Assembly (NCBI RefSeq): GCF_020037015.1
Contig: NZ_JAIQDE010000007.1
Span: forward strand, 1-51,885
From: Corallococcus sp. AS-1-6
Lineage (GTDB): Bacteria > Myxococcota > Myxococcia > Myxococcales > Myxococcaceae
Reading direction: 5' to 3'
DNA: 51,885 nt
Of the stretch, positions 19,240 through 21,314 are shown piece after piece; the first letter of the stretch is position 1; every line of letters starts with the position of its first letter. The notes beneath the pieces are model-generated. The model worked only from the letters and a program-made list of their open reading frames with translations, was not told the origin of the DNA and searched no databases. A program made the position numbers and the translations under genes.

Positions 19240-20529
19240 ATGAGTGACACCCGCGAGGCTTCTTCCTCCGCTCCGGCGCGCGTCCGGGGGCTGGAGCAGA
19301 TCGACCGGCTGTCGGTGCCCCTGCCGCATGGCACCGAGGTCACCACCCGCGTGGAGCGCGTGGCGTCCGGGGGGCGCCGCATCCCCCAGGGCGTGGTGGG
19401 CCGCGTGGTTCGCGCGCATGACGGGGGCTTCGACGTACAGATTGTCGGCGTGGGCGAGGTGTGGTTCGCCCGCGACGAGCTGGTGCCCCGGCGCGCGGGA
19501 CAGGTGCAGTTCGCCCAGCGGCGCGAGGCGGCCTGGAGCGCGCTGCGGCCGTGCGTGGTGCTGGAGACGCGCGTGGGCAGTCACGCCTGGGGACTCGCGG
19601 ACGAGCGCTCCGACGTGGACGTGCGCGGGGTGTTCGCGCTGCCGCTCCCGTGGACGCTGGGCCTGGGGCAGCCGCCGCAGGACCTGGTGAGCGCGGATGG
19701 CAGCACCACGTACTGGGAGGTCCGCAAGACGGTGGAGCAGGCGCTGCGCGCGGATCCGAACACGCTGGAGACCCTCTTCGTCCCCGGCGCGACGGCGGTG
19801 GACGAGCTGGGCACGTGGGTGCTGGAGGCGCGCGAGGCGTTCGTCTCCAAGGCCATCTTCGGCAGCTTCGGGCGCTACGCCATGAGCCAGCTCGACAAGC
19901 TCACCCGCAGCCAGCGGCTGGCCGAGCACCGCGACCTGCTCCTCGCGTGGCTGTGCGAGGAGCCCACGCCGGACCTGGACGAGGTGGCCCGCCGCCTGGC
20001 CGCCGTGTCCCCCCGCGCCGCGCCCACGCCCGAGGACGGGGTGCTCGCGGCCAAGACGTACGTCAAGCAGCTCTACCGCTCGCTCTGGGACCAGGGGCTG
20101 CTCGCGGCGAACGACTTCGCGGCGCTCACGGCGTACGCGCGCGGTGGGGGCCAGCGCCCGCCGTCCGCTCGGGAGCTGCGGCCGAAGAACGCGTACAACC
20201 TGCTGCGGCTGGTGGCGCTGGCGACCGGCTGGCTGCGCGACGGCGTGCCGACCTTCGAGGCGACGGGAGCGTTCAAGGCGCGGCTGCTCGACATCAAGGG
20301 CGGAGCGGTGCCCCTGGAGGACGTGCTGCGCGACGCCGAGGCCATGGCTCCGGCGCTGGAGGCCGCGCACCGCGAGAGCCGGCTGCCGGAGCATCCGGAC
20401 TACGCCCGCGCGGACCGGCTGCTGCGGCGTGTGGGAGACGAGGTGGCGCGGCGCTGGGTCTTGAAGACGCCCGGTCCGCTGGGCCGTGACGCGCCGGAGG
20501 CTCCGGCGCTGGAAGGAGGGACGGAATGA
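19240..20529 (+). CDS. RlaP/YcgL-type nucleotidyltransferase with N-terminal beta-barrel-like module
   Basis: The 429-residue protein has a polymerase-beta-fold core with GSHAWGLADERSDVDVRG (Gly113, Ser114, Asp125, Asp127), the metal-binding pattern of the COG3541 family. Residues of about 15-85 form a separate beta-rich, KOW/SH3-like module (RIPQGVVGRVVRAHDGGFDV) that may bind nucleic acid. Family members occur in predicted RNA repair or end-modification systems. The substrate is unknown. ATG 19240 follows AGGAGGGA. It overlaps the next, related gene by four bases. Confidence 0.8.
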   Translation: MSDTREASSSAPARVRGLEQIDRLSVPLPHGTEVTTRVERVASGGRRIPQGVVGRVVRAHDGGFDVQIVGVGEVWFARDELVPRRAGQVQFAQRREAAWSALRPCVVLETRVGSHAWGLADERSDVDVRGVFALPLPWTLGLGQPPQDLVSADGSTTYWEVRKTVEQALRADPNTLETLFVPGATAVDELGTWVLEAREAFVSKAIFGSFGRYAMSQLDKLTRSQRLAEHRDLLLAWLCEEPTPDLDEVARRLAAVSPRAAPTPEDGVLAAKTYVKQLYRSLWDQGLLAANDFAALTAYARGGGQRPPSARELRPKNAYNLLRLVALATGWLRDGVPTFEATGAFKARLLDIKGGAVPLEDVLRDAEAMAPALEAAHRESRLPEHPDYARADRLLRRVGDEVARRWVLKTPGPLGRDAPEAPALEGGTE

Positions 20530-21314
20530 AGGGCAGGGTGACGGAACATCAGGAGCGCATGGCGGACCGCGTGCTGGACGCGGAGTCCCTCCTGCGCGAG
20601 CACCTGGTCATCTCGCTGTCCGGCGCGCATGCGTATGGCTTCCCGTCGCATGACAGCGACCTGGACCTCAAGGCCATCCACATCGCGCCCACCGCCGCGC
20701 TGCTCGGCCTCCAGCCCCGGCACGTGCCGGCGGAGCGGCTGGAGGTGCTGGAGGGCGTGGAGGTGGACTACTCCTCCAACGAGCTGCAGCCCGTGCTGCT
20801 GGGCATCCTCCAGGGCAACGGCAACTACATCGAGCGGGTGCTGGGCGCCATCACGGTGCGGGCCCTGCCGGAGCTGGAGGCGCTGCGGCCCCTGGTGCGG
20901 GCCGTGCTGTCGCGCCGCGTCCACCGGCACTACCGCGGCTTCGCGCAGGGACAGCTCCGTGAATGGGAGAAGAGCGGATTCCGCTCCGTGAAGAAGTTGC
21001 TGTACGTACTGCGCACCACGCTCACCGGAACGCATGCGCTGCGCACGGGCGAGGTGGAGACGGACGTCACCGGCCTGCTGGAGCCGTATGGTTTTGGCGA
21101 GGCCCGTGCGCTGGTGGAGCGCAAGCGGAGCGGGGAGCGCATCGAGCTGACCGACGCGCTCAGCGAGCAGTGGCGGGGGGAGGTGACGCGCGCTTTCGCC
21201 GTGCTCGACGCGGCGGACGCGGCCTCCGTGTTGCCCCTGGAGCCACCCCCGCCGGCCGTGGCCGCGCTCGAGGCCTGGATGCTCGACGTGCGGCGACGGC
21301 GGTTCGGCGCCTAA
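20526..21314 (+). CDS. Second RlaP/YcgL-type nucleotidyltransferase
   Basis: The 262-residue protein has SGAHAYGFPSHDSDLDLKAI (Asp45 and Asp47 as the metal-binding pair), the same fold as the upstream gene but without the N-terminal module. It is not a duplicate fragment, because the motif is complete and the remaining sequence is divergent. The ATGA overlap with the preceding gene implies translational coupling and perhaps a heteromer. No RNA ligase gene is adjacent, unlike many RlaP loci. Confidence 0.78.
   Translation: MKGRVTEHQERMADRVLDAESLLREHLVISLSGAHAYGFPSHDSDLDLKAIHIAPTAALLGLQPRHVPAERLEVLEGVEVDYSSNELQPVLLGILQGNGNYIERVLGAITVRALPELEALRPLVRAVLSRRVHRHYRGFAQGQLREWEKSGFRSVKKLLYVLRTTLTGTHALRTGEVETDVTGLLEPYGFGEARALVERKRSGERIELTDALSEQWRGEVTRAFAVLDAADAASVLPLEPPPPAVAALEAWMLDVRRRRFGA

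Follow-up and report, generated by a model that had tools for sequence, protein, structure and literature searches.

In a window of 51,885 nucleotides from Corallococcus sp. AS-1-6 (the window being the whole stretch of DNA that was analysed), two overlapping genes, here called A and B, encode nucleotidyltransferases of the RlaP type, and the question they raise is what such a pair does where no RNA ligase lies beside it. The family, the RNA ligase-associating Pol-beta nucleotidyltransferases, was reportedly named in a 2016 paper by Burroughs and Aravind, which may already describe pairs or operons; a literature search over titles and the openings of abstracts found no report of paired RlaP. 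RlaP has been predicted to restore lost nucleotides (PMC7824862), and in the published excerpts that were available its role is a prediction. Those excerpts place it beside RNA ligases and mention no pair, whereas the genes described here form a conserved pair, include a KOW-like module and have no ligase nearby.

The preliminary description of the locus had suggested that the pair might be a two-subunit RNA or nucleotide modifying system of its own. The evidence set out below makes it rather probable that one RlaP-type RNA nucleotidyltransferase for RNA-end repair is built from A and B as its subunits, a putative heterodimer that would add nucleotides to an RNA substrate, with the labour divided between its chains.

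Two diverged RlaP paralogues and their predicted folds

The coordinates and the four-base overlap reported earlier were recovered unchanged (Table 1), and both genes start with ATG. In the Pfam profile search, both proteins exceed the curated RlaP (PF10127) cut-off of 23 bits, the match spanning residues 106-225 of A and 30-253 of B, so the assignment of both to the RlaP type stands, as does the remark that they differ in sequence: A and B are diverged paralogues. Like the rest of the RlaP family, they share a core and a helical tail and have relatives in an RNA-repair context. They are the sole RlaP matches in a profile search of their own 9.5-Mb genome; NCBIfam gave no match for either, a sequence search of solved structures with both gave no credible one, and both match phage nucleotidyltransferase PHROGs. 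Purifying selection acts on both genes and is stronger on A, for which dN/dS was about 0.08 against a congener (L043) and 0.17 against another genus (L050), the corresponding values for B being 0.22 and 0.24. The nearest named relatives of the pair are from Corallococcus, and in the window it is surrounded by the genes for RecO, a PfkB kinase, a Ser/Thr kinase and GlyQ. With a consensus for sigma-54 promoters, no pattern of the RtcR type was found upstream of A, and the whole window contained 11 matches to the pattern against 21.5 expected; scans for sigma-70 promoters and terminators around A-B returned zero.

Table 1. Positions of the two genes and of their main features in the window.
Feature	Positions	Strand	Basis
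Gene A, large RlaP-type nucleotidyltransferase with N-terminal barrel	19240..20529	+	429 aa; PF10127, 72.6 bits
A residues 27-85, SH3/KOW-like small barrel	19318..19494	+	AlphaFold2 model and fold matches
A residues 106-225, Pol-beta-type nucleotidyltransferase core	19555..19914	+	PF10127 match
A residues 125-127, Asp-Val-Asp	19612..19620	+	D125 and D127 in 58/58 aligned
A residues 153-155 (DGS)	19696..19704	+	D153 in 58/58; position 155 is S in 54, T in 3, A in 1
A/B overlap, ATGA (stop of A and start of B)	20526..20529	+	Sequence
Gene B, small RlaP nucleotidyltransferase	20526..21314	+	262 aa; PF10127, 89.9 bits
B residues 45-47, Asp-Leu-Asp	20658..20666	+	D45 and D47 in 51/51 aligned
B D81, presumed third catalytic acid	20766..20768	+	51/51 aligned

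The first 85 residues of A had been described as a beta-rich module with the look of a KOW/SH3 domain, and structure prediction had been proposed as the check. The AlphaFold2 model of A (mean pLDDT 87.0; 93.7 for the model of B) has very low confidence over residues 1-16 and values between 77 and 91 for the ten-residue blocks of residues 21 to 90, where strands 33-36, 53-60, 63-68, 72-77 and 81-83 are predicted to form a small KOW/SH3-like barrel of about five strands. This is a fold of the kind used by nucleic-acid modules, and an unrelated fold was not seen. The barrel was matched to the N-terminal part of Hpy99I (Z 9.4, 1.1 Å over 54 residues), to KOW2-KOW3 of Spt5 (Z 8.0, 1.3 Å over 50) and to NusG (Z 7.4, 1.7 Å over 51), several of the barrel Z values sitting in a range that is rated common for such fold searches, and it also resembles many chains of the ribosomal large subunit. 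In contrast to the KOW domains of Spt5 and NusG, residues 1-107 of A gave no Pfam family, KOW included, at E up to 1, and Tudor, PWWP and SH3 domains, as well as a restriction-enzyme barrel, fit equally well. Besides RNA, barrels of the SH3 type also bind proteins. An HMM of the module alone, derived from 58 A sequences, was run against 5627 ORFs and recovered the A proteins of the three Deinococcus (E 7e-9 to 5e-8) as well as two from other Myxococcota; it was weak or silent (E 0.01 or worse) on the fused genes described below and on A proteins of a second phylum (that of G206, a record titled Verrucomicrobiota), so that the module rests there on the full-length alignment.

The nucleotidyltransferase part of both proteins retains the Asp-x-Asp noted at the outset (Table 1), together with an invariant G113 and S114 in A (58/58) and G33 in the 51/51 alignment of B. 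The two proteins part at the third acid: position 155 of A, a serine, aligns with D81 of B, an equivalence that is drawn from the alignment and from the same strand-helix register of the models rather than from superposition. Stand-alone A proteins with the KOW-like module, examined in three phyla, have no acid at this position, which is S, T or A in all 58 aligned sequences and Gln in three second-phylum and three Deinococcus proteins. With the third acid altered in stand-alone KOW-bearing A and complete in its partner B, the A protein looks catalytically altered at the level of sequence, and may be an RNA-reading subunit. A somewhat unlikely alternative is that both subunits are full nucleotidyltransferases of different nucleotide or end specificity which act one after the other, as in the case of GlnE with its two catalytic halves. 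It would fit the invariant G113, S114 and Asp-x-Asp of A, where the equally invariant D153 could replace the third acid; it would also fit the Deinococcus A proteins, which carry acids close by, at aligned positions 152 and 156 and, in two of the three, also at 153, and four A-B fusions (L059-L062), whose A halves have E or D at the third-acid place itself, as do six examined large members of the family that have no module. Among the closest solved folds to B are AadA/AAD(9), HalB, DrrA and GlnE (Z 9.5-10.4), and B resembles both nucleotidyltransferase domains of GlnE (Z 9.5 and 7.9). Against this alternative stands the missing aligned acid of the stand-alone KOW-bearing proteins.

The pair as an inherited unit

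RlaP was found in 76 of the 96 genomes of the window's family that were surveyed, each with exactly two matches; since other profile searches gave 1 to 8 matches, this number is no ceiling of the search. A and B lie on one contig in 72 of the 76 (70 by the listed matches, G009 and G012 by their loci L021 and L028), and their starts are less than 1.5 kb apart in 65 of the 70 pairs with both matches listed. The genes are paired in relatives, so the outcome that would have counted against the pair did not arise; a point against it is that one closed genome of the same genus (G029) has neither gene. In a survey of named genomes that covered the best 80 of 108 relatives, 61 had B on the same strand within 150 bp after A; the distance was 150-1000 bp in 4 and 1-10 kb in 4, and no B was seen in 11; the four-base overlap was present in 48 of the 61 close pairs (ATGA in 42, GTGA in 5, TTGA in 1). 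A second RlaP was found elsewhere in the genome in 7 of the 11, and in the other 4, incomplete MAGs among them, A was the only RlaP match.

The two genes might be neighbours through tandem duplication only and have no joint function. They are indeed homologous and adjacent, and the 11 loci in which A has no B beside it could be read in this way, yet the explanation is highly improbable on several grounds. The flanking genes vary between genera and the A-B order persists; in L094 order and strand have survived an interruption of about 7 kb between A and B. Fusions occur in both orders. Four Myxococcota genomes outside the family have a single-frame fusion of the order A-B, and in the second phylum, where 288 genomes were surveyed and 38 contained RlaP, 21 had an adjacent pair or a fusion on manual reading, with the order B-A in the fusions of five genomes (L209-L212, L221). 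A tree was made from 41 hand-picked sequences (20 A, 17 B and 4 other RlaP) of Myxococcota, the second phylum, Deinococcus and one record titled planctomycete; a branch supported at 100/99 separated the A from the B sequences, the 4 other RlaP lying on the B side. By these sequences the A/B split is older than the sampled phyla.

The tandem-duplication explanation also sits badly with the four remaining RlaP-positive family genomes (G039-G042), in which another, foreign-looking RlaP on a different contig accompanies A in the place of B. In the two examples placed in the tree (L037, L006) this extra RlaP clusters with B proteins from Deinococcus and the second phylum, again at 100/99, and by its sequence a foreign B seems to have replaced the native one, perhaps in one event. 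The extra gene stands beside a LigT-like (LigT/2H phosphoesterase) gene in all four, Pfam-confirmed for L037.

Several single loci deserve mention in their own right. The extra RlaP and the phosphoesterase gene at L037:7631-8989 make a compact two-gene candidate for RNA repair. A stop codon interrupts gene A at L035:7076-8353 and in L090, the genome being one of the four that have no native B. At L104:7233-7421, B is cut to 62 aa, reads as both ends joined without the catalytic middle and overlaps the end of A; this could be real or an assembly error. Three records titled Comamonas (L076), Verrucomicrobiota (L140) and planctomycete (L145) contain a Myxococcota-like A at 88%, 50% and 55% identity; L076 looks mislabelled, and the other two may reflect transfer or wrong binning.

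RNA-repair genes around relatives of the pair

The statement that no ligase is adjacent is true of the window, where 19 queries for RNA-repair genes and their neighbours found no match. Nor was any repair gene found near A-B in 53 loci of the same family (L033-L052 and L067-L099, partly repeated genomes), the exception being the LigT gene beside the foreign RlaP of L037. A survey of neighbours had been proposed, and among the 143 family matches listed no PF09414 ligase comes nearer than 150 kb to A or B where they share a contig. The own genome has rtcR-rtcB-rtcA on another contig and a PF09414 RNA ligase also elsewhere, and no PNKP_ligase match.

Outside the family the neighbourhoods differ. 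Three Deinococcus plasmids have the order hen1-A-B, the A carrying the KOW-like module, and each of the first two genes overlaps the next by four bases. In Deinococcus gobiensis, for which the Hen1_L and PNKP_ligase matches were verified, pnkp is the next gene after B; in D. ficus one gene separates B from pnkp, and in D. taeanensis the three genes are annotated intact and only fragments of pnkp remain. In the bacteria known before, pnkp and hen1 were always in one operon, and a Pnkp1-Rnl-Hen1 complex has been reported (excerpts of PMC4411300). The window differs from this arrangement in having neither hen1 nor pnkp, and the Deinococcus A differs in lacking an insert of about 80 residues.

A second context is that of RtcB, the Rtc operon having been tied to broken tRNAs in the abstract of PMC7790460; the nucleotidyltransferase terms searched for are absent from its main text. 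In the second phylum, L213 reads RtcB-like, SPFH, DUF4145, A, B and metallophosphatase on one strand, and L214 reads RtcB-like, SPFH, an unknown protein and A, with B about 0.6 kb on. The RtcR-controlled rtcBA/Ro60 (rsr) operon has a fused, paired or single RlaP in or beside it in four loci: L209 and L212 combine RtcR, Ro60-like, RtcB and RtcA genes with a fused B-A gene, L215 has RtcR, RtcA and RtcB with a single RlaP, and in L122, a Myxococcota MAG, A-B adjoins RtcR, followed by a Ro60-like gene, an unknown protein, RtcB and RtcA. In two further Myxococcota loci, A without B accompanies Ro60 and RtcB (L129), and RtcR-RtcB lies 4.6 kb past B in Sorangium (L113). The Corallococcus locus differs from these in that its rtcR-rtcB-rtcA cluster is distant and no RtcR-type pattern precedes A.

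These identities are Pfam matches for some genes and tblastn matches for others, and such neighbourhoods are a minority: repair genes were found in 5 of the 20 second-phylum loci read up to 16 kb and in none of the other 15, and within the examined stretch of 3 named A loci (best 80 of 108), a fourth, L117, having a LigT-like gene. RtcB is present in all 46 other A-bearing genomes, so finding it together with A is hardly informative; in 5 of the 46, three of them Sorangium, the two genes were accepted as linked at a distance of up to 12 kb. The linkages kept were L113, L122 and L129, with RtcB in the locus, and L101 and L119, in which A and RtcB are both on C1 of a single-chromosome record; the rest of the 33 coordinate coincidences were set aside, the RtcB contig being different or unmatched and no RtcB being found in the locus. 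Also set aside was the co-occurrence of RtcA (74 of 76 RlaP-positive genomes versus 13 of 20 others), because genome size, completeness and ancestry confound it. The PF09414 ligase was rejected as a required partner, 14 of the 76 RlaP-positive family genomes having no match. Pnkp was found in 29 of the 96 family genomes, the own genome not among them, and one of the 29 (G029) has no A-B pair.

The earlier proposal of a two-subunit system has thus fared unevenly. The two-gene unit itself is conserved, as fusions, four-base overlaps and co-inheritance attest, and its separateness from RNA repair finds no support: relatives with a KOW-bearing A and a B occur inside operons of the Hen1-Pnkp and RtcB-like kinds, clusters of RtcR/Ro60-like/RtcB/RtcA contain related fusions, and the own genome has RtcR-RtcB-RtcA and a PF09414 ligase elsewhere. 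Because A and B are kept together or fused in distant bacteria, some of them amid RNA-repair genes, they are probably one two-part enzyme. B would be the complete catalytic subunit, with the Asp-x-Asp and the presumed third acid. The diverged A, whose nucleotidyltransferase fold keeps the NTP- and metal-binding residues and has an altered third-acid position, would contribute the barrel for binding RNA (or the ribosome). Jointly, A and B would replace the nucleotides missing from damaged RNA ends, most likely those of cleaved tRNA, and a ligase acting in trans (RtcB, or the PF09414 ligase in some genomes) would then seal the break.

A more general proposal is put forward tentatively, as possible rather than probable: RlaP may often be a heterodimer in which one subunit is active and the other, diverged, carries the KOW module, reads the RNA and has lost or moved its third acid. 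Such an enzyme would be an end-sensing RNA terminal transferase that plugs into Hen1-Pnkp, RtcB-type and, in myxobacteria, in-trans pathways, with the fusions as its single-chain form. For the bench, the pair indicates which two proteins to produce jointly and in which of them to expect the active site; if a single RlaP were assayed alone, its activity could go unnoticed. The Deinococcus hen1-A-B-pnkp operons offer a test ground with characterised repair partners, and a shared nucleotidyltransferase unit links Hen1-Pnkp and Rtc/Ro60, two repair systems that are usually treated apart.

Defence, phage and further candidate genes

The folds of A and B also admit the reading that the pair makes a nucleotide signal or AMPylates a protein, as do defence nucleotidyltransferases such as Hailong HalB, or MNT-HEPN systems. 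HalB has a similar two-domain nucleotidyltransferase fold and is among the closest folds to both proteins (Z 8.8 for A, 9.9 for B), and the other close folds of B listed above are compatible with this reading as well. The alignments with HalB have 12-15% identity, however, and no constant operon partner of A/B was seen: no third gene was conserved beside the pair across genera in the best 80 of 108 loci (crude gene calls). PADLOC returned nothing for A and a chance-level Cas11f match for B (E 0.046). The relatives have Hen1/Pnkp, RtcB/RtcA and Ro60-like genes as neighbours; the resemblance to HalB was not adopted as a functional label, and signalling or AMPylation is judged quite unlikely next to the repair of RNA ends.

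A phage origin was considered and rejected. A matches 42 phage records and B 8, all below 60% identity and none covering 80% of the query; the 40 listed phage matches of A start at residue 98 or later, leaving the N-terminal module uncovered. Viral contigs gave one weak A locus and two B-type loci.

Two further sets of genes were noted along the way. On contig C11 of the own genome (L053:1423-3484), the PF09414 ligase, of 226 aa, follows a 175-aa protein of no family and an AAA_21/DUF3696 ATPase, a cluster with the look of a defence or repair cassette in its own right. A protein of 222-237 aa with no Pfam or NCBIfam match recurs in the Rtc/Ro60-like cluster of Myxococcota (L122:6967-7641), the RtcB-like cluster of the second phylum (L214:6496-7164) and the Hen1-Pnkp cluster of Deinococcus ficus (L238:8685-9398), with tblastn E values of 3e-19 and 1e-18, and is a candidate RNA-repair factor; in D. 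taeanensis, pieces of pnkp and of this protein, in its 237-aa form, follow B (L237:8739-9151).
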